Shown piece by piece: positions 1 to 35,380 of a DNA stretch of 64,000 nt. The notes beneath the pieces were generated by a model. The model was not told where the DNA came from, ran no database searches, and saw only the letters and a list, made by a program, of their open reading frames with translations. Each line of letters opens with the position of its first letter. Positions within the stretch are counted from its first letter, which is position 1. Origin of the DNA: Liolophura sinensis (Eukaryota; Mollusca; Polyplacophora; Chitonida; Chitonidae); the NCBI RefSeq assembly GCF_032854445.1, contig NW_027017978.1, forward strand, positions 1-64,000, written 5' to 3'. The position numbers and the translations under genes are program-made.

Positions 1-2610
1 TGAAATAGTACCGGCTATCATACTACCTGACTTTACTGAAACTGAAACTAAAGCAGTACCGGCTATCGTACTGCCTGGCTATACTGAAACTAAAGCAGTA
101 CCGGCTATCGTACTGCCTGGCTATACTGAAGCTAAAGCAGTACCGGCTATCGTACTGACTGGCTATACTGAAGCTAAAGCAGTACCGGCTATCGTACTGA
201 CTGGCTATACTGAAGCTAAAGCAGTACCGGCTATCGTACTGCCTGGCTATACTGAAACTAAAGCAGTACCGGCTATCGTACTGACTGGCTATACTGAAGC
301 TAAAGCAGTACCGGCTATCGTACTGCCTGGCTATACTGAAACTAAAGCAGTACCGGCTATCGTACTGACTGGCTATACTGAAGCTAAAGCAGTACCGGCT
401 ATCGTACTGCCTGGCTATACTGTAACTAAAGCAGTACCGGCTATCGTACTGACTGGCTATACTGAAGCTAAAGCAGTACCGGCTATCGTACTGACTGGCT
501 ATACTGAAACTAAAGCAGTACCGGCTATCGTACTGACTGGCTATACTGAAGCTAAAGCAGTACCGGCTATCGTACTGACTGGCTATACTGAAGCTAAAGC
601 AGTACCGGCTATCGTACTGCCTGGCTATACTGAAACTAAAGCAGTACCGGCTATCGTACTGACTGGCTATACTGAAACTAAAGCAGTACCGGCTATCGTA
701 CTGCCTGGCTATACTGAAAATAAAGCAGTACCGGCTATCGTACTGACTGGCTATACTGAAACTAAAGCAGTACCGGCTATCGTACTGACTGGCTATACTG
801 AAGCTAAAGCAGTACCGGCTATCGTACTGCCTGGCTATACTGAAACTAAAGCAGTACCGGCTATCGTACTGACTGGCTATACTGAAGCTAAAGCAGTACC
901 GGCTATTGTACTGACTGGCTATACTGAAACTAAAGCAGTACTGGCTATCGTACTTCCTGGCTATACTGAAACAGTACTGGCTATCGCACTGCTTGGCTTT
1001 ACTGAAACTGAAATAGTACTGGCTATCGTACTGCCTGGCTATATTGAAACAGTACTGGCTATCATACTGCTTGGCTATACTGAAACTAAAGCAGTACCGG
1101 CTATCATACTGCCTAGCTTTACTAAAACTAAAGCAGTACCAACTATCATACTGCCTGACTTTACTGAAACAGTACTGGCTATCGTACTCCCTGGCTATAC
1201 TAAAACTAAAGCAGTACCGGCTATTGTACTGCCTAGCTTTACTAAGAATAAAGCAGTACCGGCTATCGTACTGCATGGCTTTACTGAAACTAAAGCAGTA
1301 CCGGCTATTGTACTGCCTGGCTTTACTGAAACTAAAGCAGTACGGGCTATTGTTTTGCATGGCTTTACTAAAACTAAAGCAGTACCAGCTATTGAACTGC
1401 CTGGTTATACTGAAACTAAAGCAGTACCGGCTATCGTACTGACTGGCTATACTGAAACTAAAGCAGTACCGGCTATCGTACTGCCTGGCTATACTGAAAC
1501 TAATGCAGTACCGGCTATCATAGTGCCTGGCTATACTGACACTAAAGCAGTACCTTCTATCGTACTGCCTGACTATACTGAAACTAAAGCAGTACCGGCT
1601 ATTGTACTGACTGGCTATACTGAAACTTAAGCAGTAACGGCTATCGTACTTCATCGCTTTTCTTAAACTTAAGCAGTACCAGCTATTGTACTGCCTGGCT
1701 ATACTGAAACTAAAGCAGTACCGGTTATTGTTTTGCATGGCTATACTGACACTAAAGCAGTACCAGTTGTCATACTGCTTGGCTTTACTGAGACTAAAGC
1801 AGTACCAACTACCGTACTGCCTGACTTTACTGAAACACTACTGGCTATCGCACTGCTTGGCTTTACTGAAACTGAAATAGTACTGGCTATCGTACTGCCT
1901 GGCTATATTGAAACAGTACTGGCTATCATACTGCTTGGCTATACTGAAACTAAAGCAGTACCGGCTATCATACTGCCTAGCTTTACTAAAACTAAAGCAG
2001 TACCAACTATCATACTGCCTGACTTTACTGAAACAGTACTGGCTATCATACTCCCTGGCTATACTGAAACTAAAGCAGTACCGGCTATTGTACTGCCTAG
2101 CTTTACTAAGAATAAAGCAGTACCGGCTATCGTACTGCATGGCTTTACTGAAACTAAAGCAGTACCGGCTATTGTACTGCCTGGCTTTACTGAAACTAAA
2201 GCAGTACCGGCTATTGTTTTGCATGGCTTTACTAAAACTAAAGCATTACCGGCTATTGTTTTGCATGGCTATACTGACACTAAAGCAGTTCCGGCTATTG
2301 TACTGCCTGGCTTTACTGAAACTGAAACAGTACCGGTTATTGTACTTTCTGGCTTTACTGAAACTAAAGCAGTACTGGTTATCGTACTGCCTGGCTTTAC
2401 TGAAACTAAAGCAGTGCCGGCTATTGTACTGCCTGGCTATACTACAAGTAAAGCAGTACTGGCTATCGTACTGCCTGGCTATAGTGAAACTAAAATCAGT
2501 ACCAGCTATAGTACTGATTGGCTGTACTGAAAATGAAGCAGTACCAGATATTGTACTGCCTAACTATTTTGAAACTAAAGTAGTACCGACTATTGTACTG
2601 TTGGCTTAAA
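1..2610 (+). repeat. 42-bp minisatellite, array A (about 60 units)
   Basis: Head-to-tail units of 42 bp, with some 36-bp units lacking six bases. Each unit reads GGCTATACTG, then AAACTAAAG, then CAGTACCGGCTATCGTACTG, then CCT. Because 42 and 36 are multiples of three, two plus frames and one minus frame stay open for hundreds of codons (plus frame repeat GYTETKAVPAIVLP; minus frame repeat RQYDSRYCFSFSIA). I do not take these as genes. A block at about 960-1400 recurs at about 1825-2230 (offset 864 bp), a higher-order duplication. Units toward the right edge (2430-2610) are more diverged than central ones, as expected where unequal exchange homogenises the centre. Confidence 0.95.
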
Positions 2611-2834
2611 TTACATGTAAAGTAGTACTGGCTATCATAGTGGGTGGCTATGCTAAAATGAAACCACTACCGGTTATTGTAAAGTAGTACCAGTTATTTT
2701 AGTGCTTGGCCATATTGAACCTAAGGCAGTAAACTGACTTAATACAGGCTATTGTACTGCCTGAAGTTAATGCATTACTGACTATCATACTGCCTGAAGC
2801 CCAAGCAGTGCGGGCCAATGTGCTGAAGCTAAAG
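2611..2834 (+). other. Degenerate array edge ending in a strong splice donor
   Basis: Decayed 42-bp units run into the stretch GTGCTGAAGCTAAAG followed by GTAAGTATC, a near-consensus 5' splice site after 2834. The copy B counterpart ends at 28840 with the same donor. The last part is open in the same frame as the array's GYTETKAVPAIVLP reading in both copies (copy A about 2735-2834) and would splice in phase 0 to the next exon-like segment. Upstream of that stretch the frame is broken by TAA/TGA. This suggests that the array was, or still is, part of a spliced transcript; there is no proof of coding. Confidence 0.45.
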
Positions 2835-3102
2835 GTAAGTATCTTTGTATGAAAATATTATGATTCATATGAACCCATGTCACTCAATTAGTCAGCTTGC
2901 TGTAAAGATATTGAGAGATCTCTTTGTCCTATGACTGAAATAATGTTTTAAACATTACATCGAAAATAAGTCACTCACTCATTCACTTATCCTAAAAAAA
3001 CAAACATTTAAACACCGTTAAAATGGGAAAACACTTTTGTACATAGCTTAATCGTGTAATGTTCATACTTGTGTTTAGTGTACTGGATTTGTTCTTTTAC
3101 AG

Positions 3103-4476
3103 GAGCTTTGGTCTTGGAAATCTTAGTAACTGTTGGCACTGGAGCTTGTGGGAGAAAAAAAACTTCTGATAACTGCAACTGCAACTTCCTGTGAAGTGAA
3201 ATACCAGAAATTCAGTGCTTATCGATGCAGCTCAAATTGTATCCCAGTTGTCTTCTAGTTAATGTAAGTATGTCATGTATTTAGTTTAAAATGTTTATGA
3301 CATCTTCCATTTTGGTATTTGACATGGTAATTTACACTTGTAGTGTTATGCTCAGACTATAACATATCACGTTCACTAGCCATTATGTGTAAACACATGC
3401 CTCTGACGGGGCCTCTTTAATATTAGATTTGATGGGAGTTCAGTTTATGTAATAATTTTAGATTGATTACTTGATCTCTGCTAATTATTGTGTTATAAAT
3501 AAACCTATGTTTCCTAAATTTATTTCTAGAGCCAACCTATTTAAAACGTTGGATAGAAAAAACAGGCACTTCAGTGATCAATTTCTGAGGATCTTGGTGG
3601 CGAGATGGACGACTATGGCAGAAACGTGCTGTTAGGACATCATTTGTTGGAGACCTCCGGCAGTCCACCGCAGTATAATATAAGTAAGGAAGTTATTAGT
3701 GACTTGGCACTATTCCTGTAAAACTACTGAATAAATCTTGGTCAAAATTCTCAAACTTGTGAATAAATTTGTGATCTTGAACTTTCATGTAATATAAATG
3801 AATGTCTCAAAACCAGTTTCGATTAACTCCATTACATGTAACTTAAAAGACAGGAGAAATTATATATTAGCTAAAATAACACACAAGCAAAGGCAGGGTG
3901 GATATATCCAGGTACAGCTGTAAGAGTCGTATGAATAGAATATTGTGGGCGTTAAGATCACTTCAGGGAATCGCTTGTTTATAAAGCTAGTACAAAGGGA
4001 CTGAAAGTCTCTTAAAGTGACACTATATTTGACTGAATTGTCTTCACTGGTTTCATGTTAATGTTAAAATATGACTATTTTCAGGTGCTCTCCTCCTCTC
4101 ACCAATACCACTCCGCGTTTATCTTCGGATAGACACTGGCGGCTCAGGACCTTATGGAATGGACCAGTATATCCCGCAAAAATGGAACAAAATGGCAGCA
4201 AAGAACTCAAAAGTCATATATGCCATCTTAAGTCAGTATCACTATGGATGATGGAGAGCAACATATCCATCTAAACAAATGTTGCCCCTAGAACACTAAT
4301 ACTGCGAAGAACTTGCGCATGTGGTTTCTTTTTATGACAACTTGACAAGTCTGTCTTATATAGTTAAATCTGCTGAGAAGGATGATAAGATGTTAGGTGT
4401 GCTGAGAGGCATGATTCGTATGGCAAATCAAGAAAATTGCCAAATGACAGAAGCTATCGGCTGGCTGGAAAGTTGA
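3103..4476 (+). pseudogene. Unrecognised exon-like segments, broken frame (copy A)
   Basis: Three segments carry canonical splice signals conserved in copy B: 3103-3263 (acceptor TTCTTTTACAG, donor GTAAGTATG), 3530-3683 (acceptor TTATTTCTAG, donor GTAAGG) and one starting at 4085 (acceptor ATTTTCAG). Joining 3605-3683 to 4085 onward gives an 81-residue frame starting MDDYGRNVLLGHH and ending at TGA 4249-4251. The same frame continues past a second stop (TAA 4297-4299) into a reasonable C-terminal-like stretch (YCEELAHVVSFYDN to AIGWLES) ending at TGA 4474-4476. I do not recognise the protein. Frameshifts between the copies argue for a decayed gene or an old transposon-carried gene fragment. 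Exon calls rest on splice signals and conservation only. Confidence 0.35.
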
Positions 4477-4677
4477 AGATAAAACATCTAGATTGAATTA
4501 AATGATGGCCTTTAACAGCAACATGTAACAAACCCTGTATGATGGTAACATTTATTGGTGGTAACATCTGAATGACCTGTCTTGTAGATACTTCAGTAAC
4601 TGTACCGTAACACCATCATGTGAAACTGAAACTGTAATTCAAAATTGAGGTGATATATATTCGCCTTACATACCTCA

Positions 4678-4865
4678 AATCGCTGTGAGTTCAACTCCAC
4701 CGCATGCTATCTTCCTCTCTGGCTGTAAGTGGAAAGGTCTCAGCAACCTGCAGAAGGTCGTGGGTTTCCCTAGAGCCCGGTTTCATCCCACCATATTGCT
4801 GGCTGCTGTCGTATAAGTGAAATATTCTTAGCACGGCGTAAACACCAATCAAATAAGTAAATAAA
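4678..4865 (+). mobile_element. SINE, 3' body with molluscan tail (copy A)
   Basis: The sequence runs from GTGAGTTCAACTCCACC through GTGGGTTTCCC and CCCGGTTTCATCCCACCAT to a tail with TAAGTGAAATATTCTTAG, CACCAATCAAATAAG and TAAATAAA. The same body and tail occur at 14195, 30765 and 35956 and in reverse at 45741, so it is a dispersed family. The tRNA-like head is weak or lost here. It lies at the same place in copy B (30765-30973), so insertion preceded the block duplication. Confidence 0.8.
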
Positions 4866-6263
4866 GACATACCCCAATGTATGGACATATCTGATTTTTG
4901 TAAATACAATTACAGGGCTGGAAAAATGTGGATTTTTTTTAGGCGCTCTGGCAGGCAACCAAGACGTTCAACTGTGGTTGGCCCCTTTCACCTTGGTTGC
5001 CGCCCACTTTTTATGTCATTTTGGTATGTGATCATTTAAAGTACAATACAATAAAATACAATGACATAAATAATATCTGATAAAAGTGATTTTCTGATTG
5101 GTGCTGAAATCATTAATACTGAGAAATGGTTAAATACGTTTTGATCCATCAGTTATGTTGCCTTTGAATACCCTTTTGAAAAGTATGGAATGGAATTTTT
5201 AGGCAGCCATATGCATTTTCATTGATGTACGGTTCGGATGACAGTCCAATTACATTTTTGTGAACAGAATTTTTTGGACATGTATTTTTTGACCAAATTC
5301 AAAGCACGGTCGATTCATGAATGAAATGTACACTTCATCCAAACATAGCGGTAAGCCAACCTATTTCCTGGATGATACAGAAGACGGCTTATATTGTATA
5401 TGTAGTAGCAGAATAGTGACGTATGTTTTGTACGGTATATTGGACCGTGAATATAATATTTTATATTTTGTTGTTGTGTGAGACGACACCGTAGGGTGAA
5501 TTAAGTTTTGTAACAGAAGATATAAACCAAGAGAAACGTTGTTGAGCGATTATACAGTACGAAGCATTTTCATTTTTATTATGTACTGTGAAGAATTCTT
5601 TTCCGTCGAGCCTCAGTAAGCGTCAATATCATTTAGCTTGTTTATGTACGATTGGTACAACTAGCTGGCCGACAAGGTCGATGGGAGTTTGAACGGCTAA
5701 ACGATGATTAATACTGAATCGGAATCTGAAACTTCCGCTTGGTACATGTTACATTGTGTTTTGGCAAAGTAGTTCCAAAGGGCAGAACTCTTGATCAGTG
5801 ATTGTTTCTCCCAAGTAAAGTTCGACCATGGAAAGACTGCAGTTTTGCGGACGTGCATGCCTGGCTTTCCCGCTGAGCGAGTCACGCGGTCGCTCAAATG
5901 GGGCTTCACTTATGGGGTCGTCTCAAATTTTCGAATGGTCATTTATCTATTCCAATTCGGCCAATTTTCTAACCGTTTACGGGTCCCCCCTTTTCGACGC
6001 TACTTCTGATATATATATGTCACTTTACCTGAATAAAGAAAATGTACTTTTCACTTTGGTGTTATTCATTTGCTGTATATTTTCAACAATCCCCACCAAT
6101 TAAACAGTTTACTTTCTTCACGGGCATTAACATACATATATAATGGAAAATATTTTGATTTCTATACAGCACAGTGACAGAGGCTTGTGCAGTTAGGTTA
6201 ATTAAAGTGTGTACAAACAATACATGTACTTTCAATTTGTGCCCACATTATCAAATATATATC
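4866..6263. other. Non-coding part of block A, no gene seen
   Basis: AT-rich unique sequence matching 30974-32299 of copy B. It contains only short chance reading frames (for example 91 codons at 5828) that are not preserved in copy B. An AATAAA lies in the stretch CCTGAATAAAGAAAATG near 6030 and is conserved in copy B near 32060; it could be a polyadenylation signal for a transcript of the block, but nothing else supports this. Confidence 0.6.
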
Positions 6264-6500
6264 GACCGCCTCGGTGGCCTATTGGTTAGAGTGTACACCT
6301 CGAAGTCGAAATATACGAAAGGCATTAAAATGGTACTTGTTGGCTCGATTGGCGCCCAGCGCTAAGGGCTTCGAGCAAAGAGACCGGACTCGTCAGCCCG
6401 ATGTCAGTTTATAAAATGATTGGCTGAGGTGTCTTGTGTCTTCGGTATGGTGTTTCAGTGGCGGCAGAACTTTGACGGCATTCGCCCTGCCGATCCAATA
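6264..6500 (+). mobile_element. Second tRNA-derived SINE family (copy A)
   Basis: The head GACCGCCTCGGTGGCCTA followed by TTGGTTAGAGTG is a good tRNA 5' half with a pol III A-box. It is followed by a diverged body containing TTAAAATGGTACTTGTTGG, GCCCAGCGCTAAG, TCTTCGGTATGGTGTTTCAG and GGCGGCAG, which I recall as the body of a common molluscan tRNA-SINE. The T-arm region is eroded, so this is an old copy and not a tRNA gene. The same insertion is present in copy B at 32300. Confidence 0.7.
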
Positions 6501-6719
6501 ATACACGGACCGTATAACATGATCAGGTTAACATATAACGTGGCCACAGTAAAGAGAAGTGGGTGTGGGCGAAACAAAGATAACTTTTGGAAATACATAT
6601 ACAAGATACACTGGTTGAGGCAATCGCTATTATAGTGCAAACCAGACAGGAGAACATATATATGAGACATACTCTTCGCAGCCATCGGTACATTGTATTA
6701 CACTACATAGTTTGTAAAT
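6501..6719. other. Spacer in block A
   Basis: Non-coding sequence between the SINE and the 320-bp tandem unit, matched in copy B. A short piece, AATAATACACGG, recurs at 10190, showing further internal reuse of block segments. No gene seen. Confidence 0.5.
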
Positions 6720-7330
6720 GTGGTAAATATGCCTTTGGACATTACTTGAAAACGTATATGTCCTGTGTTTGTTGAAACAGATCACAGATTTTCAGCACAC
6801 ATAGAGTACATGTGTAGCGCTTTACACTCAGTAATTTTCAACTTTACGGCTGTTACGGTTTTCTCGCAACAGACCTCGAAATATGGTGACAAATTGCGCT
6901 TTTTAACGTTTTCATCGCCATTTGCAGCAGAACTATGCGTCGCCGGAAAGAAATAAGTCCACATTCATGATTAGGACGTCAAACTACGTCGCGTAGCATG
7001 TTTACATTGTTCGTGCCTTCATCCTAGTCGAAGTGCCAAATATAGCAAATCGGCCTTTGCACAATATTTGAAGCATTGCAACTCCCACATTTATTGGCAC
7101 ACTATCATGATTTTACGCACGCCTACAGTACTCATATAGCCCTTTGTACTCAGTCATTTTCAGCTCCACAGCTGCAGCGGTTGTGTGTCACGTTCCCTCC
7201 AAACATCGGCGAAAATTGTACTTTTTCGCATCTTCATAGCAATTCGCGACAAAACTATGCGTCGGAGAAAGAAAAAACCACCAAATTCGTCATCAGAACA
7301 TCGAACTACGCCTAGCAGCCTACTTGAAAC
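6720..7330 (+). repeat. Diverged tandem pair, unit about 320 bp (copy A)
   Basis: Two units align from about 6725-7005 and about 7048-7320. Shared landmarks in order are GCCTTTGGACA/GCCTTTGCACA, ATTTTCAGCACACAT-type text, CACTCAGTAATTTTC/ACTCAGTCATTTTC, ACAGCTG or ACGGCTG, AACTATGCGTCG and a stretch ending in ACTACG. The pair is also present in copy B (32765-33410), so the tandem doubling came before the block duplication. Confidence 0.65.
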
Positions 7331-7629
7331 CTTGAAATTCACAACATTTTCATCGCCTGACAGATTGGCTAAGCTGGGATCGAACTCTGACTTGACTGAC
7401 TGGCGTCACACCACGCACCCGGGAGACGGTTAGCGTTTAAATCCTTGTGTAATTAGGTAAAGTCTTAGAAAATTTCGCCAGCATTTCCCCTACCACCCAC
7501 ACTATTGTATATCTGGCGTAGTCCCCAAGGCAGTCGCAATTCTCACTTCAAGTCTGCGTACAAATTTTCTTTATGCTTTCATCTTTTATATGAGAGCATA
7601 AGTTATTGGTCGAAAATCCACACATAACT
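7331..7629. other. Non-coding spacer in block A
   Basis: No gene, RNA or named repeat recognised. Parts match copy B near 33410-33500, where the interval is shorter. Confidence 0.4.
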
Positions 7630-8568
7630 AGCTACACGGTTTTCAAAGTTTCGATGCGACCTTACACCGTTTGTCACTGAGGCAGTCGGCCGGTCATTCC
7701 CTATTCCCTTCCTTGGCATACTTGGCTCGCTGTGTGTAAGAAATAATGCAAAAACAAAGCCCGTGTAAGAGCAAATTTGAACTTCCACGTCTCAATCCAC
7801 GACCTGCCATGCACAGACTCAAAGCTCTACTCATAGCTCGGCTGTTGTCAGAAAGTCAACACTTATAACACATGTCCATACCCTGACCTGGTTAGCGTAT
7901 AGTAAAAAAGACAAGGTCTGCCCAAAACAAAGCTAACTTTTACAGGTCCACGTCGTTTGCTGTTGTAGTTAGATCTCTACGCCATCTAATAGAGTACTGG
8001 AGTTAGATGGGAACTGGAATCAATGTCATCCTACAACCGTTTCGGGAGATCACGGACAGTGTAGCCGAAAGCATCAGGTGAAATACTACAAACCCAGTCC
8101 AGTCCCCATCTAACTCCATGTTAAATCAATAGGATTCCCATCTTTTTCTGAACAAAAAACGGTGTTGTCATTTAAACGCTTCTAGCGAAAAAACTATTGA
8201 TCGGAGCTGAAATCCGTTGACGAATGCTCGAAAGAGCATGTCTTGGGCTACAATTTCGTGCAAATTGCACATTTCTAGCTCCCACAGATCTCGAGTTACA
8301 GGTCATTAAAATTACGTAACTTTTTTGAGTTTTTTGCTCATATCTCAAAAAGTTACACAGATATGGAAAAAATACGACCAGATTCAGAATCAGCAGCTCA
8401 AGATACACCAGAATGCGTTCAGAACATTTGAACTTTGAGAACTTTTTGTGACGTCACAAATTCGACCAATGGCGAGCTTCCAGAATTTTGACCGGAAGTG
8501 AACCATTTTCGCAAACTTTAAAGAACTCGTGACTTACTAGCTGCATGTCAAATTTGAAAACGATCGGT

Positions 8569-8599
<31 letters not shown>

Positions 8600-8752
8600 G
8601 TTTTACACAAAATCCAATATGGCGGCCGAACCACGTGACATAGCAAAAAAGTGGAGAATTTGTCCCGAGATATTCACCGCCAGAATATGTGTGCAAAATT
8701 TCAGACCTGTATGTTGAACGGTAAAAAAGTTTCCATGCGAACAAAGTCGGTG

Positions 8753-8823
8753 AAAAAAAAATAATAATAATAATAATAACTAGAATGGATCTGCGAATAG
8801 CAGATCCTAGGCCGGGATCCCGG
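8753..8823. repeat. (TAA)n tract with two palindromes, unit 1
   Basis: An A-run and (TAA)n at 8753-8779 are followed by a perfect hairpin at 8787-8807 (stem GGATCTGC, loop GAATA, stem GCAGATCC) and a 12-bp palindrome CCGGGATCCCGG at 8812-8823. It closes the 1.3-kb unit. The matching site in unit 2 is 10073-10164. In copy B the same position holds a different palindrome family (35166-35371). Confidence 0.85.
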
Positions 8824-10072: not shown

Positions 10073-10078
10073 AAAAAA

Positions 10079-10116
<38 letters not shown>

Positions 10117-10164
10117 GAAACTAGAATGGATCTGCGAATAGCAGATCCTAGGCCGGGATCCCGG
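10073..10164. repeat. (TAA)n tract with two palindromes, unit 2
   Basis: A longer (TAA)n tract (about 10080-10116) is followed by the same hairpin as in unit 1 (stems 10128-10135 and 10141-10148, loop GAATA) and CCGGGATCCCGG at 10153-10164. The palindromes are unchanged between units while the TAA tract length differs. Confidence 0.85.
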
Positions 10165-10195
10165 ATCGGATCGATGACGTTTTCCGCACCCAATA

Positions 10196-10561
10196 ATACA
10201 CGGTCCTTATCACAGAAAGTTTAGACTTTTACGTATCAATCCACGGCCTGCCATGCACAGTCTAGCCGGCCCCCTCCTTCCTCTTGACAATGGGGCTAGG
10301 CAACCATCCATGCAGTTATATATATAATTCTTTGGGTGTACAGGTTGGAGATTTATATCCGTAAAGGTTAATTGCGTTATTTGCAATTATGTAGTCACTG
10401 CTAAATCAGCTTTTAGGTTTTAATTCATGATCTTTTTTATTTGGTAAAATTCGCGCTGTACATTGAACGTGTGTGTAGGCCTATATATGTTGAAAGCGGG
10501 AGGGGTGTGTATTAATGCATGGAGTCATATTCCGCTACATTGAGTCATATTCCGCTACATT
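10196..10561. other. Start of the unique segment between the two block copies
   Basis: Mostly featureless non-coding DNA. A perfect 20-bp tandem doublet occupies 10522-10541 and 10542-10561 (unit GAGTCATATTCCGCTACATT), directly beside the SINE target-site duplication at 10562. Confidence 0.6.
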
Positions 10562-10930: not shown

Positions 10931-10950
10931 GGGGGGGGGAGGGGGGGAGG
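10930..10950 (+). other. G-rich tract, possible G-quadruplex
   Basis: Runs of ten and seven G broken by single A residues, directly at the head end of the SINE. A similar tract, GGGTGGGGGGAGGGGGGGGG-like, lies at 13144-13164 in the Helentron intron, and a run of 13 G at 41412-41424. Confidence 0.5.
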
Positions 10951-12802: not shown

Positions 12803-12808
12803 TGCAAC

Positions 12809-24248: not shown

Positions 24249-24319
24249 CTGGCTATACAGAAACTGAAACAGTACCGGCTATCGTACTACCTGGCTATAC
24301 TGAAACTGAAACAGTACCG

Positions 24320-25010
24320 GCTATCGTACTGTCTGGCTATACTAAAACGAAAACAGTACCGGCTATCGTACTATCTGGCTATACTGAAACGAAAACAGTA
24401 CCGGCTATCGTACTGCCTGGCTATACAGAAACTAAAACAGTACCGGCTATTGTACTGCCTGGCTATACTGAAACTAAAGCAGTACCGGCTATCGTACTGT
24501 CTGACTATACTGAAACTAAAGCAGTACCGGCTATCGTACTGCCTGGCTATACTGAAACGAAAACAGTACCGGCTATCGTACTATCTGGCTATACTGAAAC
24601 TAAAACAGTACCGGCTATCGTACTGTCTGGCTATACAGAAACTAAAGCAGTACCGGCTATCGTACTGCCTGGCTATACTGAAACTGAAACAGTACCGGCT
24701 ATCGTACTGTCTGGCTATACTGAAACGAAAACAGTACCGGCTATCGTACTATCTGGCTATACTGAAACGAAAACAGTACCGGCTATCGTACTGCCTGGCT
24801 ATACAGAAACTAAAACAGTACCGGCTATTGTACTGCCTGGCTATACTGAAACTAAAGCAGTACCGGCTATCGTACTGTCTGACTATACTGAAACTAAAGC
24901 AGTACCGGCTATCGTACTGCCTGGCTATACTGAAACGAAAACAGTACCGGCTATCGTACTATCTGGCTATACTGAAACTAAAACAGTACCGGCTATCGTA
25001 CTGTCTGGCT
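24320..25010 (+). repeat. Higher-order duplication in array B, 378 bp (9 units)
   Basis: The variant unit with GTCTGACTATACTG occurs at 24503 and 24881, an offset of 378 bp (nine units), and flanking variants repeat in the same order. A second, smaller higher-order event next to the 588-bp one. Confidence 0.85.
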
Positions 25011-28000
25011 ATACAGAAACTAAAACAGTACCGGCTAACGTACTGCCTGGCTATACTGAAACTAAAACAGTACCGGCTATCGTACTGTCTGGCTATACTG
25101 AAACTAAAGCAGTACTGGCTATCGTACTGTCTGGCTATACTGAAACTAACGCAGTACCGGCTATCGTACTGCCTGGCTATACTGAAACGAAAACAGTACC
25201 GGCTATCGTACTGTCTGGCTATACTGAAACTAAAGCAGTACTGGCTATCGTACTGTCTGACTATACTGAAACTAACGCAGTACCGGCTATCGTACTGCCT
25301 GGCTATACTGAAACGAAAACAGTACCGGCTATCGTACTGTCTGGCTAAACTGAAACTAAAACAGTACCGGCTATCGTACTGTCTGGCTATACAGAAACTA
25401 AAGCAATACCGGCTATCGTACTGCCTGGCTATACTGAAACTAAACCAGTACCGGCTATTGTACTATCTGGCTATACTGAAACTAAAGCAGTACCGGCTAT
25501 CGTACTGTTTGGCTATACTGAAACTAAAGCAGTACCGGCTATTGTACTGCCTGGCTATACTGAAACAAAAGCAGTACCGGCGATTGTACTATCTGGCTAT
25601 ACTGAAACTAAAGCAGTACTGGCTATTGTACTGTCTGGCTATACTGAAACTAAAGCAGTACCGGCTATCGTACTGCCTGACTTTACTGAAACTAAAGCAG
25701 TACCGGCTATTGTACTGTTTGGCTATACCTAAGCTAAAGCAGTACCAGCTATCGCACTGTCTGCCTATACTGAAGCTAAAGCAGTACCGGCTATCGTACT
25801 GTCTGGCTATACTGAAACTAAAGCAGTACTGGCTATCGTGTTGCTTGACTTTCCTGAAACTAAACCAGTAACGGCTATTGTACTGTTTGGCTATACTAAA
25901 AACTAAGGCAGTACCGGCTATCGTACTGTCTGAATTTACTGAAACTAAAGCAGTACCGGCTATCGTACTGTCTGGCTATACGGAAACTAAAGCAGTATCA
26001 GCTATCGTACTGTCTGGCTATACCGAAACTAAAGCAGTACCGGCTATCGTACTGTCTGACTTTACTGAAACTAAAGCAGTACTGGTTATCGCACTGTCTG
26101 GCTATACCGAAACTAAAACAGTATCAGCTATCGTACTGTCTGGCTATACCGAAACTAAAGCAGTACTGGCTATTGTACTGTCTGACTTTACTGAAAATAA
26201 AACAGTACTGGCTATTGTACTGCCTTGCTATACTGAAACTAAAGCTGTATCGGCTATCGTACTGCCTGGCTTTACTTAAACTGAACCAGTACTGGCTATT
26301 GTACTATCTGGCTATACTGAAACTAAAGCAGTACCGGCTATTGTACTGCCTGGATTTACTGAAACTAAAGCAATACCGGCTATCGTACTATCTGGCTATA
26401 CTGAAACAGTACCGGCTATTGTACTGCCTGGCTATACTGAAAGTGAAACAGTACTGCATATTGAGTGCCTGACTTGACTGAAACAGTACCGCATATCGTA
26501 CTGCCTGTCTTGACTGAAACAGTACCGGCTATTGTACTGCTTGGCTATTCTGAAACTGAAGCAGTACCGGCTATTGTACTGCCTGCCTTTACTGAAACTA
26601 AAGCAGTACCGGCTATCGTGCTGCTTGACTATACTGAAACTGAAGCAGTACCAGCTATTGTACTGCCTGCCTTTACTGAAACTAAAGCAGTACCGGCTAT
26701 CGTACTGCCTGGCTATACTGAAACTAAAGCAGTACCGGCTATTGTATTGTCTGGCTATACTGAAACTAAAACTGTACCGGCTATCGTACTGCCTGGCTAT
26801 ACTGAAACTAAACCAGTACCGGCTATCGTACTGCCTGGCTTTACTGAAACTAAACCAGTACCAGCTATTGTACTGTCTGGCTATACTGAAACTAAAGCAG
26901 TACTGGCTATCGTACTGCCTGACTTTACTGAAACTAAAGCAGTACCGGCTGTTGTACTGTCTGGCTATACTGAAACTAAAGCGGTATCGGCTATTGTACT
27001 GTCTGGCTATACTGAAAGTAAAGCAGTACTGGCTATCGTTCTGTCTGGCTATACTGAAACTAAAGCAGTACCGGCTATTGTACTATCTGGCTATACTGAA
27101 ACTAAAGCAGTACCGCTTATTGTACTGTCTGGATTTATTGAAACTAAAGCAGTACCGGTTATTGTACTGCCTGCCTTCACGGAAACTAAAGCAGTACCGG
27201 CTATCGTGCTGCCTGACTTGACTGAAACAGTACCAGCTATCATACTGCTTCGCCATATTGAAACTAAAGCAGTACTGGCTATCGTACTGCCTGGCTTTAC
27301 TGAAACTGAAGCAGTACTGGCTGTGGTACTGCATGGCTTTACTGAAACTGAAACAGTACCAGCTATTGTACTGCCAGACTTTACTGAAACTGAAGCAGTT
27401 CAGGTTATTGTACTGCCTGGCTATACAGAAACTAAAGCTGTACCGGCTATTGTACTGCCTGGTTATACTGAAACAAAAGCAGTACCGGCTATTGTACTGC
27501 CTGGCTTCACTGAAACTGAAATTGTACCGGATATTATACTGCCTGGCTATACTGAAACTAAAACAGTACCGGCTGTCGTACTGCCTGGCTATACTGAAAC
27601 TGAAACAGTACTGGCTATCGTACTGCCTGACTTTACTGAAACAGTATCGGCTATTGTACTGCTTGGCTATACCTAAGCTAAAGCCATACTGGCTATCGTA
27701 CCGCCTGGCTATACTTAAAGTGAAACAGTACTGGCTATCGTACTGCCTGACTTTACTGAAACAGTACCGGCTATCGTATTGCTTTTCTATACTGAAACTA
27801 AAGCAGTACCGGCTATCGTATTGCTTGACTTGACTGAAACAGTACTGGTTATTGTACTACTTGGCTATACTGAAACTAAAGTAATACCGGCTATTGTACT
27901 GCCTGGCTTTACTGAAACTAAAGCAGTACCTGCTTCTGTACTGGCTGGCTTTACTGAAACTAAAGCAGTACCGGCTATTGTAGTGCCTGGTTTTACTGAA

Positions 28001-28700
28001 ACTAAAGCAGTCCCAGCTATTGTACTGCCTGGCTTTACTGAAACTAAAGCGGTACACAACTCTTTTGCCACCTAGCAATACTGAAACTAAAGCAGTGCCG
28101 GCTGTCGTACTGCCTGGCTTTACTGAAACTGAAACAGTACCGGCTATCGTACTGCCTGGCTTTCCTGAAACTAAAGCAGTACTGGTTATCGTACTGACTG
28201 GCATTACTAAAACTAAAGCAATACCGGCTATTGTGCTGCCTGGCTTTGCTGAAATTAAAGCGGTACCAGGTATCGTACTGCCTGGCTATAATGGAACTGA
28301 AGCAGTACAGGCCATCGTACTACCTAACTATACTCAAACAAAAGTAGTACCGGCTATTTTACTGCAAGGCTACACTGAAACTAAAGCAATACCAGTTATC
28401 GTACTGATTTGCTAAAGCAGTGCCCGCTGTCGCACTGCCTGGCTATAGAACAAGTAAAGCAGTACTGGCTACCGTACTGCCTGGCTATAGTGAAACTAAA
28501 AGCAGTGCCAGTTATCGTTCTGCCTGGCTGTACTGAAAGGGAAGCAGTACCAGATATTGTAGTGCCTAACTATTCTGAAACTAATACAGTACCGGCTATT
28601 GTACTGCCGCCTTATATTACAAGTAAAGTAGTACCGGCTATTGTAATGGGTGGCTATGCTAAAATGAAAGCATTACAGGTTATTTTAAAGTAGTACCAGC

Positions 28701-28840
28701 TATATTACTGCTTGGCCATATTGAACTTAAGGCATTAAACTGACGGAATACAGGCTATTGTACTGCCTGGAGCAAATGCATTACTGACTATCATACTGCC
28801 TGAATCCCAAGCAGTGTGGGCCAATGTGCTGAAGCTAAAG
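28701..28840 (+). other. Decayed array edge with splice donor (copy B)
   Basis: Counterpart of 2611-2834. The frame reads ESQAVWANVLKLK up to AAG/GTAAGTATC and would continue in phase 0 into the segment at 29100, ending within ten codons. Donor and frame are kept in both copies. Confidence 0.45.
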
Positions 28841-29099
28841 GTAAGTATCTTTGTAGGAAATATTATCATTCATATGAACCAGTGTCGCTCAATAAGTCAG
28901 CCCCCTATAGATATTTGGAGATCACTTTGTCCATGACTGAAATAATGTTCTAAACATTACATCGAACACAAATTACTCACTCATCCTCAAAAAAAAAACC
29001 CACTTAAAAACCGTTAAAATGGGAAAAAACTTTTGTACATAACTTAATCGGGTAATGTTTCTTAGTTGTGTTTAGTGTACTTGATTTGTTCTTTTACAG

Positions 29100-30502
29100 G
29101 AGCTTAGGTCATGGAAATCTCAGTAATTGTTGGCACTGGAGCTTGTGGGAGAAAAAAACTTCTGATAACTGCAGCTGCAACTTACTGTGAAGTAAAATCC
29201 CAGAAATTCAGTGCTTATCGATGCAGCTCAAATTGTATCCCAGTTGTCTTCTAGTTAATGTAAGTATGTCGTGTATGTAGTTTAAAATGTTTATGACATC
29301 TTCCTCTTTGGTATTTGACATGCTAATTTACACTTGTAGTGTTATGCTCGGACTATAACATATTACGCTCACTAGCCATTAGGTGTAAACACATGCCTCT
29401 GACAGGGCCTCTTTAACATTAGATTTGATGGGAGTTCAGATTATGTAAGAATTTTAGATTGATTAATTCATCTCTGCTGATTATTGTGTTGAAAATAAAC
29501 CTATGTTTCCTAAACTTATTTCTACAGCCAACCTATTCAAAACGTTGGTCAGAAAGAAAGAAATTAATGACAGAATTTTGTGCATAACAGGCACTTCAGT
29601 GATCAATTTCTGAGGGTCTTGGTGGCAAGGTGGACCATTATGGCAGAAACGTGCTATTGGACATCATTTGTTGGAGACCTGCAGTCCACCGCAGTATAAT
29701 ACAAGTGAGAAGTTATCAGTCACTCGCCACTATTCCTGTAAAACTACTGGATAAATCTTCGTTCAAAATCTCAATCTCGTGAATGAATTTGTGATCTGGA
29801 ACTTTCATGTAATATAAATGAATGTCTCAAAACCAGCTTTGATTAACCCCATTACATGTAACTTAAAAGACAGGAGAAAATATATATTAGCTAAAATAAC
29901 ACACGTGCAAAGGCAGAGTAGATATATCCAGGTACAGCTGTAACAGTCTGTAACAGACATGAATAGAATATTGTGGGCGTTAAAATGACTTCAGGGAATC
30001 GCTTGTTTATAAAGCTAGTTCATCAGACTAAAAGTCTCTTAAAGTGACACTGTTTGATTGAATTGTCTTCACTGAATTCATGTTAATGTTAAAATATGAC
30101 GGTATTTTCAGGTGCTCTCCTCGTCTCACCAATACCACTACCCGTTTATCTTCGGATAGACACTGGCGGCTCAGGACCTTATGGAATGGACCAGTATATC
30201 CCGCAAAAATGGAACAAAATGGCAGCAAAGAACTCAAAAGTCGTATATGCCATCTTAAGTCAGTATCACTGTGGGTGATGAGAGTAACACTTCCATCTAA
30301 ACAAATGTTTCCTCTAGAACACTAATACTGCGAAGAACTTGCGCATGTGGTTTCTTTTTATGACAACTCGACAAATCTATCTTATATGGTTAGATCTGCT
30401 GAGAAGGATGGTAAAATGTTAGGTGTGCTGGGAAGCATAATTCGTGTGGCAAATCAAGAAAATCGCCAGATCACAGAAGCTATCGGCTGGCTGGAAAGTT
30501 GA
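29100..30502 (+). pseudogene. Unrecognised exon-like segments, broken frame (copy B)
   Basis: Counterpart of 3103-4476, with splice signals at matching places: 29100-29259 (donor GTAAGTATG), 29528-29704 (acceptor TTTCTACAG, donor GTGAGA) and a segment from 30112. Relative to copy A there is one A fewer in the A-run near 29150, a one-base deletion near 29655, a three-base deletion near 29680 and a one-base deletion near 30280, so the joined frame of copy A is not preserved. The C-terminal-like stretch ending AIGWLES at 30500 is still open. This pattern fits a decayed gene. Confidence 0.35.
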
Positions 30503-30764
30503 AGATACAACATCTAGATTGAATTAAATGATGACCTATAACACCTACAGAAAACTCTCGCTATTTCTAATTCAGGTATTAACCATTCCGGATGTGAGCT
30601 ACGTGTAACAAGCCCTTTATTATAGTAACATTTATTGGTGGTAACACCTGAATGACCTGTCTTGTAGATACTTCAGTAACTGTACCGTAACACCATCATG
30701 TATGCGAAACTGAAACTGTAATTCAAAATTGAGGTGATATATATTCGCCTTACATACCACAAAT

Positions 30765-30973
30765 CACTGTGAGTTCAACTCCAGCTTATGCTATCTTTTT
30801 CTCTGTTTGTAAGTGGAAAGCTCTGGCTGTAAGTGGAAAGGTCCGACAGCAACCTGCAGAAGGTCGTGGGTTTCCCTAGAGCCCGGTTTCCTCCCACCAT
30901 AATGCTGGCTGCCGTCGTATAAGTGAAATATTCTTTAGCACGGCGTAAACACCAATCGAATAAGTAAATAAAG
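30765..30973 (+). mobile_element. SINE, 3' body with molluscan tail (copy B)
   Basis: Orthologous by position to the SINE at 4678-4865. It has a short internal duplication (TAAGTGGAAAG twice near 30810-30840) absent from copy A. The tail has TAAGTGAAATATTCTTTAGC and CACCAATCGAATAAGTAAAT. Confidence 0.8.
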
Positions 30974-32299
30974 ACTTACCCCAAGGTATGGACATCTCTG
31001 ATTTTTGTAAATACAAATACAGCGCTGGAAAAATGTGGATTTTTTTAGTCGCTCTGGCGGGCAACCAAGGCGTTCAACTCTGGTTGACCCCTCTCACCAT
31101 GGTTGCCACCCACTTTTTGTGTCATTTTGGTATATGATCATTTAACGTACAGTACAATAAAATGCAATGACATAAAAAATATCTGATAAAAGTGATTTTG
31201 TGATTGGTGCTGAAATGGTTAAATACGTTTTGATCCATCAGTTATGTTGCCTTTGAATACCCTTTTGAAAAGTATGAAACTAAATTTTTAGGCAGCTATA
31301 TTCATTTTCATTGATGTACGGATTGGGTGACAGTCCAATTACATTTTTGTGAACAGAATTTTTTGGACATGTATTTTTTGACCAAATTCAAAGAACGGTC
31401 GATTCATGAATGAAATGTACACTTTATCCGAATATAGCCGACATATTTCCTGGATGATACAGAAGACGGCTTATATCGTATATGTAGTAGCAGATTAGTC
31501 AAGTATGTTTTGTACGGTATATTCGACCGTGAATGTAATATTTGATGTTATATTTTGTTGTTCTGTGAGACGACACTGTAGGATGAATTAAGTTTTGTAA
31601 CAGAAGATATAAACCAAGAGAAAGGTCGTTATTAAGCGATTATACAGTACGAAGCATTTTAATTTTTACCATGTACTGTGAAGAGTTCTTTTCCATCGAG
31701 CCTCAGTAAGCGTCATTTTCATTTAGCTTGTTTATGTACGATTGGTATAACTGTGTTATGGCAAAGTAGATCCGAAGGGCAGAACTCTTAATCAGTGATT
31801 GTTTCTCCCAAGGAAAGTTCGACCATGGAAAGACTGCACTTTTGAGGACATGCATGCCTGGCTTTCCCGCCGAGCGATTCACGCGGGCGCTCAAATGCGA
31901 CTTCACACTTACGGGGTCGTCTCACATTTTCGAATGGTCATTTATCTATTTCAATTCTGTCGGATTTCTAACCGTTCACGGGTCACAACCCCCCACCCCC
32001 TTTCCCCCGCCCTCCTTTTTTTTTTTTCGGCACTAGTTGTGCTATATATGTAACTTTACCTGAATAAAGAAAATGTACTTTACACTTTGGTGTTATTCAG
32101 TTTGCTGTATATTTTCAACAATCTCCACCAAATAAACAGTTTACTATCTTCACTAGCATTAACACACACACATATATACTGGAAAATATTTCGATTTCTA
32201 CACAGCACAGTGACAGAGGCTTGTGCGGTTAGGTTAATTAAAGTGTGTACAAACAATACATGTAATTTCAATTTGTGCCCACATTATCAAACATATATG
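30974..32299. other. Non-coding part of block B, no gene seen
   Basis: Matches 4866-6263 with scattered substitutions and small indels, including an 80-bp-scale loss near 31740. A C-rich then T-rich stretch near 31988-32028 differs from copy A. Reading frames are short and not shared between copies. Confidence 0.6.
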
Positions 32300-32535
32300 G
32301 ACTGCCTCGGTGGCCTATTGGTTAGAGTGTACACCCCGAGGTCAAAATGTACCAAAGGCAATAAAATAGCACTTGTTGGCTCCAATGGCGCACAGCGCTA
32401 AGAGCTTCGAGCGGGAAACCGGACTCGTCAGCCCGATGTCAGCTTATAAAATGATTGGCTGAAGTGTCTGGTGTCTTCGGTATGGTATTTCAGTGGCGGC
32501 AGCACTTTGACCGCATTCCCCCTGCCGATCCAATA
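32300..32535 (+). mobile_element. Second tRNA-derived SINE family (copy B)
   Basis: Positional match of 6264-6500: GACTGCCTCGGTGGCCTA then TTGGTTAGAGTG, followed by the same diverged body. Present in both copies, so it predates the block duplication. Confidence 0.7.
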
Positions 32536-32764
32536 ATACACGGACCGTATAACATGACTAAGCTAACGTATAACGTGGCCACAGTAAAGAAAAATGGGCG
32601 TGCGCAAAACAAAGATAACTTTTGGAAATACATATACAAGATACACTGGTTGAGCCAATCGCTATTGCAGTGCAAACCAGACAGTTAGGAGAACATACAT
32701 ATGATGCATACTCTTCGCAGCCATCGATACATTGTATTACACTACATAGCTTGTAAATGTCCCA

Positions 32765-33410
32765 AATGTGGTAAATATGCCTTTGGACATCACTTGAAAA
32801 CGTATATGTCCTGTGTTTGTTGAAACAGATCACAGATTTTCAGCACACATAGCGTACATGGGTAGCGCTTTGCACTCAGTAATTTTCAGCTTTACAGCTG
32901 TAACGGTTTTCTCTTAACAGACCTCCAAATATGGTGGGAATTGCGCTTTTTCGCGTTTTCAACACAATTTGAGGTAAAACTACACGTCGCCAGAAAGTGC
33001 AGATTCATGATCAGGACGTCAAACTACGTCGGGTAGCATGCTTACAATGTTTGTGCCTTCATCCTAGACGCAAATGCATTTAAAATGCATCATATAACAT
33101 GGGGGCGTCAAAGTGCCAGATATAACAAATCGGCCTTTGGACAATATTTGAAGCACTGCAACTCCCTCATCTATTGACACACTTCCATGATTTTCCGCAC
33201 GCCTACAATACACACATATAGCCCTTTGCACTCAGTCATTTTCAGCTCCACAGCTGCAGCAATTTTGTGTCACGTGACCTCCAAACATGGTCTAGAATTG
33301 TACTTTTTCGCACTTTCATAGCAATTGGCGAAAAAAACCCGTGCGTCGGAGAAAGAAAAAAACACCAGATTCGTCATCAGAACATCCAACTACGCCTAGC
33401 AGCCTACTTA
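32765..33410 (+). repeat. Diverged tandem pair, unit about 320 bp (copy B)
   Basis: Counterpart of 6720-7330. Landmarks GCCTTTGGACATCACTTG and GCCTTTGGACAATATTTG start the two units, and AACTACGTCG/AACTACGCC close them. A short insert with TTAAAATGCATCATATAAC near 33070-33115 is absent from copy A. Confidence 0.6.
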
Positions 33411-33561
33411 AAACCTTGAAATTGACAACATTTTCATCGCCTGACAAATTGGCTAAGCTGGGATCAACCTCTGACATGACTGACAGGCATCAGCGGTAAG
33501 AGAAAACAAAGAAAGAAGAAAAATCATAGTTTGTACTTTTATATCTCAATCCGTGACCTGC

Positions 33562-34800
33562 CATGCACAGACTCACAGCTCTACTGATATCTAGGCCGTT
33601 GTTTGAAAGTCCACACCTGGACCAGAGCACATGGCGATGTCTGTCAATCACCCTGGCCTGGTTAGCGTATAGTAAAGAAGACAAGGCCTGCGCAAAACAA
33701 AGCTAACTTTTGCAGGTCCACTTCGTTTGCAGTTGTAGTTAGATCTCTACGCCATCCAATAGTGTACTGTATAGCTCAATGTCATCGTACAACCGTTTCG
33801 GGGTATCACGGACAGTGTAGCCGAAAGCATCAGGTCAAATACTATAAATCCAGCCCATCTTTATCTAGACAAAAAAACGGTCTTGTCATTTAAACGGTTC
33901 TAGCGTGAAAACTTGATTGGAGCTCAAATCCGTTGACAAATGCTCGAAAGAGCATGTCTTGGGCTACAATTTCGTGCAGGTAGCACATTTCTAGCTGCCA
34001 AAGCTCTCGAGTTACAGGTCATTGAAGTTGCGTCACTTTTTTTAGTTTTTTTGCTTATATCTCAAAAAGTTACACAGATATGGAAAAAATACAACCAGAT
34101 TTGGAATCAGCAGCTCAAGATGCACCAGAATACGTTGAGAACATTTGAACTTTGAGAACTTCATGCACAGACTCACAGCTCTACTGATATCTAGGCCGTT
34201 GTTTGAAAGTCCACACCTGGACCAGAGCACATGGCGATGTCTGTCAATCACCCTGGCCTGGTTAGCGTATAGTAAAGAAGACAAGGCCTGCGCAAAACAA
34301 AGCTAACTTTTGCAGGTCCACTTCGTTTGCTGTTGTAGTTAGATCTCTACGCCATCCAATAGTGTACTGTATAACTCAATGTCATCGTACAACCGTTTCG
34401 GGAGATCACGGACAGTGTAGCCGAAAGCATCAGGTCAAATACTATAAATCCAGCCCATCCCCATCTAACTCCATGTTAAAGCAATAGGATTCCCATCTTT
34501 ATCTAGACAAAAAAACGGTGTTGTCATTTAAACGGTTCTAGCGTGAAAACTATTGATCAGAGCTCAAATCCATTGACGAATGCTCGAAAGAGCATGTCTT
34601 GGGCTACAATTTCGTGCAAATTGCACATTTCTAGCTGCCATAGTTCTCGAGTTACAAGTCATTGAAGTTACGTCACTTTTTTTAGTTTTTTGCTTATATC
34701 TCACAAAGTTACGCAGATATGCAAAAAATACAACCAGATTTTAAATCAGCAGCTCAAGATACACCAGAATACGTTGAGAACATTTGAACTTTGAGAACTT
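33562..34800 (+). repeat. Young tandem duplication, offset 600 bp
   Basis: From CATGCACAGACTCACAG at 33562 and again at 34162 the sequence repeats with an exact 600-bp offset for at least the first 170 bp, and by landmarks to the end (TTTGAACTTTGAGAACTT at about 34144 and about 34784). The junction at 34161/34162 cuts directly from the end of one unit into the start of the next. The first unit has lost some internal bases (near 33855). This event is private to copy B. Confidence 0.85.
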
Positions 34801-35108
34801 TTTGTGACGTCACAAATTCGACCAATGGCGAGCTTCCAGAGTTTTGACCTGAAGTAAACCATTTTCGCAAACTTTAAAGAACTCGTAACGTACTAGCAGC
34901 ATGTCAAATTTGAAACCGATCGGTTCAGTGGTTCTTGAGAAGAAGATTTTTAAAGGTTTTACACAAAATCCAATATGGCAGCCGAACCACGTGACATAGA
35001 AAAAAAATGGAGAATTTATCCCTGGAAAATTACCGCCAGAATATGTGTGCAAAATTTGAGACCTCTATGTTGAACAGTAAAAAAGTTTCCTTGCTAACAA
35101 GGTCGGTG

Positions 35109-35371
35109 AAAAAAAAATAATAATAATAATAATAATAATAATAAGAAAAAACAGAACGATTACAATAGGGATCCCGTTCGGGAAGAACGGGATCCCTAAA
35201 AACAGAACGATTACAATAGGGATCCCGTTCGGGAGAACGGGATCCCTAATAATAATAATAATAATAAGAAAAAACAGAACGATTACAATAGGGATCCCGT
35301 TCGGGAGAACGGGATCCCTAAAAAACAGAACGATTACAATAGGGATCCCGTTCGGGAGAACGGGATCCCTA
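35109..35371. repeat. (TAA)n tract and four perfect stem-loops
   Basis: Four near-identical stem-loops at 35166-35198, 35217-35248, 35289-35320 and 35340-35371. Each has the stem TAGGGATCCCGTTC, loop GGGA (GGGAA in the first) and stem GAACGGGATCCCTA. Each is preceded by ACAGAACGATTACAA, and (TAA)n tracts with AAGAAA lie before the first and third. Stems are perfect at 14 bp. They sit where copy A has the unrelated GGATCTGC hairpin, after the same (TAA)n tract. Confidence 0.9.
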
Positions 35372-35380
35372 AAAAAGATC

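Follow-up and report, generated by a model that had tools for sequence, protein, structure and literature searches.

The first 64,000 nucleotides of contig NW_027017978.1 (C39:1-64000, hereafter the window) of the 609-Mb, 632-contig assembly GCF_032854445.1 of the mollusc Liolophura sinensis very probably contain a nested, Russian-doll array of Helentrons, formed by the serial and oriented self-insertion of these transposable elements into an A-rich linker located just inside one of their termini. The window presents, in order, the tail of a first Helentron (#1, 1-8779), a non-autonomous derivative (8780-10120), and a second Helentron (#2, 10121-35197). This reading is carried by the boundaries of the units and their constant ends, the co-occurrence of the Helentron with the duplicated block that lies on either side of it here, the pairing of broken linkers with their remainders, the two extra A's found at the insertions, the lack of close kinship between neighbors, and an allele without the array. 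The origin of tandem arrays of Helitrons and Helentrons is unsettled, with concatemers, bypassed termination, and repeated insertion all having been proposed, and what is new here is a direct record of how Helentron arrays grow. Because the insertions leave matched pairs of broken-linker scars, the order of the events can be read from a single assembly, like nested brackets.

In the proposed mechanism, each element bears the linker (AAT)nAAGAAAAAACAG, which lies some 50 bases from the end downstream of its open reading frame (ORF) and which, on the other strand, is a T-rich tract close inside the canonical 5' end. A newcomer, either autonomous (~25 kb) or non-autonomous (~1.3 kb), would enter between the A's of this linker, in the same orientation, and push the hairpin of the resident downstream. 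Repeated rounds would then yield a head-to-tail array in which the starts gather on the left and the displaced hairpins stack on the right, the last in being the first out. The insertion is presumably driven by the Rep/helicase/endonuclease protein through rolling-circle transposition, and the self-targeting may be caused by a preference of the endonuclease for T-rich DNA, which has been proposed for Helentrons (PMC4067079).

Ends of the elements and the non-autonomous unit

The isolated units have constant termini, with the start CTAGAATGGATCTGCGAATAGCAGATCC... and the end ...GGGATCCCGTTCGGGAGAACGGGATCCCT, for which folding predicts stems of 8 bp and 14 bp, respectively. On the ORF strand, the extracted loci show AA ahead of 95 of 99 starts and after 101 of 101 hairpins, which corresponds to the T-rich insertion site of Helentrons, with TT at both ends. 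The genome contains the 28-base start in 522 exact copies, of which 197 are forward and 325 reverse, against none for the reversed control; 290 exact starts are preceded by AATAATAA. Counts of neighbors and of isolated units rest on the 100 exact starts listed, 79 of which have a same-strand neighbor within 4 kb, while none has one on the opposite strand. Twelve of the 21 listed starts with no near neighbor were picked by hand and examined; eight of these units consist of exactly one start and one hairpin, two lie within an older unit and show a second hairpin, and two have no hairpin in the stretch examined. Under a stringency unlike that of the 28-base count, 184 exact junctions were found, in which the end of a hairpin is followed, after 0-11 bases, by the first 12 bases of a start, and in 98 of the 100 junctions listed, the spacer corresponds to the beginning of the linker.

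On the strand opposite the ORF, GGGATCCCG begins at base 2 of the 5' end, and a palindrome at 8-28 and GGGATCCC within 33-44 are found from the 3' end, these being slightly nearer than published. Both the subterminal repeats and the 3' palindrome of Helentrons are thus present. For the Helentron ends of mites, the subterminal repeats are placed 2-4 nt from the 5' end and ~38-60 bp from the 3' end, and the 3' palindrome 8-35 bp from the end (PMC4067079). Given that Helentron-type ends are read on the strand opposite the ORF, the ORF is antisense to the canonical polarity.

Starts are found in the window at 8780 and 10121. Bases 1-65 of the unit 8780-10120 match the head of Helentron #2 (98.5%), and about 1.1 kb of it matches the Helentron tails (91% to #1, 88% to #2). 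This unit is thus a deletion derivative of a Helentron, as HINE elements are, its displaced hairpin being assigned by pairing. The Helentron heads of C71 and C7 are longer than that of the window at window position 10317, C71 by ~8.6 kb (with no stop-free frame of at least 150 aa in the extra stretch), and in C7 the first ~0.9 kb resembles the non-autonomous units. The head region of the Helentron also has two partial copies (83-91%) on one strand of C11, 28 kb apart (C11:22275936-22277324 and C11:22303902-22305289), which have no match listed to the ORF piece or the protein, and are perhaps another non-autonomous family.

The nesting record

Twenty-nine loci were parsed, comprising 21 arrays or nested cases and eight isolated units, with the last-opened unit paired with the first-closed. 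Counts are incomplete at seven of them (C13a, C13b, C189, C71, C23, C8_54.7, and C2_7.37), which are partly covered, and the Helentron interiors also lie outside the parsed stretches. In the arrays, the starts often follow one another with no intervening hairpin and the hairpins are stacked downstream, each extra hairpin being preceded by a piece of the linker. An insertion in the AAT run is expected to leave a remainder that keeps the AAG, and an insertion after the AAG, a remainder that lacks it. The breaks after AAG pair with AAG-less remainders in 8 of 8 cases and the AAT-run breaks with AAG-holding remainders in 32 of 33 (Fisher p 9e-8); the type of break predicts the type of remainder in 40 of the 41 pairs. 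When the unbroken units are included, 89 of 91 are concordant, a value that within-array shuffles of the labels reach in 1 of 20,000, the units within one array being treated as independent in both tests. First-in-first-out pairing is worse in six of the seven arrays with a break after AAG, the window being the seventh.

The number of A's provides further evidence of the insertions. In seven of eight cases, the A's on the two sides of the insert add up to 8, whereas the AAG-holding linkers have 6 in 81 of 85, and each insertion therefore adds two A's, whatever its position. They may be a 2-bp duplication or the terminal A's of the element.

The stack in the window comprises, in order, the linker of Helentron #2, AAAAACAG (non-autonomous unit), an AAG-bearing remainder (Helentron #1), and AAAAAACAG. 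The break at 10120 (AAGAAA) and the piece 35198-35247 (AAAAACAG) fit as the two halves of one linker, 25 kb apart. The remainder AAAAAACAG is left over, and therefore points to one more outer unit, which, together with the left half of Helentron #1, would lie beyond the start of the contig.

A number of points weigh against serial insertion as read here. One of the 41 pairs contradicts the order (at C13b, where the outer unit is outside the examined stretch), and the other discordant unit of the 91, C3_5.8, has a degenerate hairpin as its only one. There is a break after AAG with no remainder at C1_3.88; the break at C1_8.90 reads CAGAAA rather than AAGAAA, and was counted among the eight by a special rule; and C8_12.0, also one of the eight, has the remainder AATAAACAG. 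The numbers of starts and hairpins disagree in some of the 11 multi-unit arrays that are bounded within or close to the examined stretches. Five balance (C1_19.7, C8_32.46, C1_58.57, C7, and C5_6.54, the last only with a broken outer unit seen upstream), five are off by one (C6_73.35, C7_17.97, C1_3.88, C3_5.8, and C8), and the 7.8 kb of C6_36.1 contain four starts but no hairpin, the interiors of the C7 and C8 Helentrons being outside these counts. Adjacent linkers in C8_54.7 share an odd AATCATAAT, which is likely a local duplication, and identical hairpins could have been multiplied by slippage. Units that share an array also lack full independence in the tests. In the window, where the left end of the array would lie beyond the contig start, first-in-first-out pairing performs as well as last-in-first-out, and the window alone therefore does not decide the order of pairing.

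The site without the array

The right flank of the array matches C1:86.01 Mb at 98% over 3.5 kb, and C1 reads ...CCCCCCAAAAAAGATCATC where C39 has ...GGGATCCCT / AAAAAAGATCATC. C1 is most likely the empty allele and C39 the other haplotype, which fixes the right terminus of the array; the pre-insertion site is known from this one side because the left junction would lie beyond the start of the contig. C7 and C71 were also considered as alleles of one site and rejected, given that their left contexts differ (only 12 bases are available in C71).

Kinship of the units and alternative origins of the arrays

Among the 79 units with recognizable bodies (extracted loci only), the median identity is 92.0% between adjacent units (47 pairs), 91.7% between non-adjacent units of the same array (118), and 91.5% between units of different arrays (2916). 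For 6 of the 79, the closest relative is the neighboring unit, and the closest pair (99.8%) is found on C2 and C13. As neighbors resemble each other no more than members of different arrays do, both concatemers and tandem duplication are disfavored as the main cause.

A rolling-circle concatemer would arise through the repeated copying of a circular template, the resulting head-to-tail multimer being inserted in one piece, an origin that has been proposed for plant Helitron arrays. Helentrons are thought to use rolling-circle replication, the listed places are in head-to-tail order, and tandem Helitrons elsewhere have been explained in this way (PMC12628747). The fresh units of a concatemer should, however, be near-identical, whereas the neighbors here share ~92% and are so rarely nearest relatives, and the hairpins are often stacked with matching broken linkers rather than placed one per unit. 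Near-identical units, each with both ends, were not found in the extracted arrays, and we consider this origin very improbable.

A segmental or tandem duplication of a ~26-kb unit or a 1.3-kb module, through unequal crossing over, is slightly less probable again. Blocks A and B of the window, described below, are direct copies, and the two adjacent C8_54.7 units share their private linker variant, but duplicated units should be mutual nearest relatives, as only the same 6 of 79 are, and block A, at ~100%, is closer to the C71 copy than to block B (85-87% outside the satellite). The identity to C71 also ends just past the element boundary at 8780, which argues against duplication. Compared in 250-base steps, the C39 and C71 sequences show an identity of 99.6-100% along the tail of Helentron #1 as far as 8657, of 96.4% in the step that straddles 8780, and of 91-95% in the later steps, and a base-by-base comparison of C39 and C71 gives zero mismatches over 8000-8836 and many beyond. 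Given that the first ~65 bases of the compared units are nearly alike, the change in identity sits at the 8780 boundary within that resolution.

Serial self-insertion thus remains the preferred origin. The places listed span ~104 kb on C13 (3,956,731-4,060,717), ~99 kb on C71, and ~39 kb on C9, each of these being a span rather than a proven unbroken array. Nesting would probably immobilize the resident, as an element that has been hit would be cut off from its own 5' hairpin by the 3' end of the newcomer, and could move only by read-through. A non-autonomous unit is found directly in the tract of 6 of the 9 autonomous tails (both window copies counted). It is possible, if rather doubtful, that the T-rich tract is a self-made landing site, through which the family grows satellite-like arrays by serial self-insertion, sparing the host, trapping its earlier copies, and allowing non-autonomous units to disable autonomous ones. 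The earlier copies would be trapped because a rolling-circle start at the displaced hairpin meets the 3' end of the newcomer before the body of the resident.

These arrays provide a route from a transposon to satellite-like arrays, and the question of how they grow is directly testable in any long-read genome with such elements. The pairing of scars also offers a read-free check on assemblies of arrays of this type.

The duplicated block as a part of the Helentron

An earlier note on this stretch, made from the sequence alone, had described two direct copies (A and B) of a non-coding block of 10-13 kb, offset by about 26 kb, with a Helentron between them whose stop codon lies about 210 bp from the first decayed unit of array B. 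The self-comparison bears out the order, strand, and offset (~26.0 kb), with 7-5662 matching 26036-31752 on the same strand. With the satellites masked, same-strand matches are found between 2775-5662 and 28781-31752 (87%) and between 5755-7408 and 31752-33492 (85%). Both blocks open with a 42-bp satellite (TRF: 41-2600 and 22626-28664), and the stop of the ORF 14782-22359 was measured at ~207 bp ahead of the first decayed 42-bp unit (~22567). These matches are not due to chance, given their kilobase lengths and the 522 exact copies of the 28-base start against none for the reversed control.

Block A, while indeed a direct copy of block B, is not a single block of 10-13 kb. It is a composite in which the tail of one element, up to 8779, is followed by a distinct non-autonomous element of 1341 bp (8780-10120), and is truncated on the left, as the window begins at the start of the contig; the sequence from 10121 onward is already the head of Helentron #2. 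Block B, in turn, is the 3' half of Helentron #2, whose own hairpin ends at 35197 and is followed by three further linker-plus-hairpin pieces, up to 35370.

In the genome, a piece of the 3' half of the ORF (20300-22550) has seven copies, 95-100% identical (7 candidates, 7 scored), and a piece of the tail (3000-5000) has nine full copies and one long partial copy (C4), the remaining matches in this search being a short dispersed repeat. The satellite, and then the tail, lie downstream of the Helentron on the same strand in all seven Helentron copies. Two of the nine full block copies, block A of the window and that of C23, have no visible Helentron, and both reach contig ends (the C23 satellite extends to base 379030 of a 379032-base contig). 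As the block follows seven of seven Helentrons and the other two copies run off contig ends, it is the 3' half of the Helentron, in the sense of the ORF. The block is, then, the satellite-plus-tail half of a ~25-kb autonomous Helentron, and its two copies in the window are the halves of two Helentrons.

The suspicion of the earlier note that the block is linked to the transposon is thus upheld by its co-occurrence in the seven copies, and the checks that it proposed gave termini that are constant across loci and the same unit boundaries at other loci. Its further suggestions are not supported. A chance insertion after a segmental duplication finds no support, as the block is the element's own satellite and tail, nor does a passenger captured by read-through, as the block lies within the element. 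Very long direct terminal repeats were not found either, as none of the seven Helentrons carries the same repeat at both ends of a single copy. The window Helentron is the only one seen with a block also close upstream, and this block is the tail of another Helentron whose linker took the insert. That the block is an independent sequence (host DNA, a satellite, or another transposon) that flanks Helentrons as long direct repeats or is carried by read-through, as the layout of this one window might suggest, can practically be dismissed, since every match of the satellite (9 candidates, 9 scored, in a search that skips simple repeats and in which unmatched sequence does not prove absence) falls within these Helentron/block loci, seven of the nine full tail copies lie behind a Helentron and the other two reach contig ends through the satellite, and the C4 match, the only other long partial one, sits behind decayed Helentron coding sequence.

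Coding region and class of the Helentron

The ORF presents a herpes-tegument-like N-terminal domain, an OTU protease, DUF6570, Helitron_like_N (Rep; E 1e-32), a PIF1 helicase downstream of Rep (PF05970, E 5e-28, at 1854-2031), and, at the C terminus, an AP-type endonuclease of the Exo_endo_phos family (PF03372, E 2e-7, at 2315-2510). Helentrons are recognized by the Rep motif (V/I)ExQxRGSPHxH (PMC4067079), and the translation carries a motif of this type, VEFQHRGSPHTH. RPA, which is frequent rather than universal in Helentrons, had no match in the main ORF or in six ORFs of the tail, the region 10121-14781 being outside the scan. By the domains, termini, and insertion site predicted from their sequences, the elements would be classed as Helentrons. 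Among the matches, the ORF is free of stops in C39, C71, C189, and one of the C13 copies, and has stops or breaks in the other C13 copy, C7, and C8. A 54-bp in-frame tandem repeat, of the type KVKAYSKERYLSDTRHKQ, is found within the ORF at window positions 16450-16962.

The 42-bp satellite is ~3.5-8.4 kb long (match extents of the uncut copies). It was considered as a coding sequence and rejected, given that three of the six frames of its unit are stop-free, which accounts for long ORFs on both strands. In the frame TETKAVPAIVLPGY, the diversity by codon position (A, 0.082/0.068/0.055; B, 0.104/0.084/0.072) is not raised at the third position; for the frame LKLKQYRLSYCLAI, this position has the highest values by a slight margin (0.082 and 0.104), and this may be a weak coding signal.

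A spliced host gene was also sought in the tail, where sites resembling GT/AG are visible by eye near 2833, 3102, and 3243, and was rejected, as the Pfam scan of the six tail ORFs gave nothing above the cutoff (best E 0.076). A host parent of the tail was rejected as well, as its sole long partial match outside, that on C4, adjoins decayed Helentron sequence. No known RNA family was found in the window at the gathering score, and a 19-base match of the element end to one bacterial record was taken as chance. Within the tail of Helentron #2, there is a direct duplication of ~600-640 bp (90%; 33562-34161 and 34162-34800), with no element start between the copies.

Table 1. Features of the nested Helentron array and its flank in the window
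Feature	Position	Strand	Basis or remark
42-bp satellite of Helentron #1, cut by the contig start	1..2680	+	self-comparison, TRF, satellite search
Non-coding tail of Helentron #1, ending in its own (AAT)n linker where the next unit starts	2681..8779	+	
Non-autonomous HINE-type unit (1341 bp; Helentron head joined to Helentron tail) within the linker of Helentron #1; last bases AAGAAA	8780..10120	+	
Helentron #2 (25,077 bp, CTAG start through own hairpin), within the linker of the non-autonomous unit	10121..35197	+	
Element start: CTAG, hairpin with 8-bp stem, CCGGGATCCCGG palindrome (the Helentron 3' end on the - strand)	10121..10164	+	
ORF, 2525 aa	14782..22359	+	domain search
42-bp satellite of Helentron #2	22567..28687	+	
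Tail of Helentron #2	28688..35115	+	no Pfam match above cutoff, 6 ORFs tested
Linker (AAT)nAAGAAAAAACAG and terminal hairpin of Helentron #2	35116..35197	+	
Linker remainder (AAAAACAG) and hairpin, assigned to the non-autonomous unit 8780-10120	35198..35247	+	left break AAGAAA, 3+5 A
Linker remainder ((AAT)nAAGAAAAAACAG) and hairpin, assigned to Helentron #1	35248..35319	+	AAT-run break pairs with AAG-holding remainder
Linker remainder and hairpin, assigned to a putative further outer unit beyond the contig start	35320..35370	+	left over after pairing
Host flank; C1:86.01 Mb is the counterpart without the array (...CCCCCCAAAAAAGATC...)	35371..38900	.	

Relation to known systems

The elements described here share with the Helentrons, HINE, and DINE-1 elements of Thomas et al. 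in 2014 (PMC4067079) the Rep motif, the PIF1 helicase, the C-terminal AP-type endonuclease, and the OTU protease, as well as an A/T-rich target in which AA, or TT on the opposite strand, borders both ends. Palindromic subterminal repeats, a 3' palindrome, and non-autonomous copies derived by deletion are also shared. They differ in their length of 25 kb, in the 42-bp satellite inside the autonomous copy, and in the nesting of copies in one another's linker, which forms long arrays. The ORF antisense to the canonical polarity is a further difference, although one such case, Helentron-Da-40, is reported in that paper.

In the Pacific oyster, Cg_HINE likewise presents Helentron-type ends, internal tandem repeats, and T-rich insertion sites with no target duplication seen; no autonomous element could be related to it there (PMC7492417), whereas here autonomous and non-autonomous elements share ends and arrays. 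The FoHeli/Helitron2 elements of Fusarium are similar in their multiple 5' termini, some reversed ORFs, and a suggested self-insertion, one element being inserted beside the 5' end of another, and in Metarhizium, three tandem copies were described for which the choice between insertion and rolling-circle replication was left undecided (PMC5148889). Few cases are given there, while here many junctions favor insertion.

The plant centromeric Helitron arrays of Xiong et al. in 2016, as presented in a review (PMC12628747), are also long and tandem, with several 5' ends, but have been attributed to the rolling-circle amplification of truncated circles, whereas the units here are diverse and the hairpins nested. 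Tandem Helitrons as such are known, and have been attributed to bypassed termination or rolling-circle amplification (PMC4067079, PMC5148889, PMC12628747, PMC2773423), and repeated insertion at one site has been named as a route to Helitron dimers (PMC12628747). In the open-licence PMC literature, covered beyond the five papers cited here by search listings, no paper was found with nested scars like these.

Other repeats in the window

Beyond the Helentrons, the window contains tandem arrays of a 78-bp unit (53228-54404; 15 copies, 96%), of a 29-bp unit (40429-41080; 22 copies), of 25-28-bp units (56477-56978), and of a 42-bp unit unlike that of the Helentron satellite (57359-58033; 16 copies). 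Finally, a short dispersed repeat is found at 4680-4864, 14219-14332, 30848-30972, and 36024-36208, which places it within the tails of the Helentrons, ahead of the ORF, and in the flank. It is present on many contigs, at ~83-87% in the best matches, and may be related to the short interspersed nuclear elements (SINEs), which we take it to resemble.

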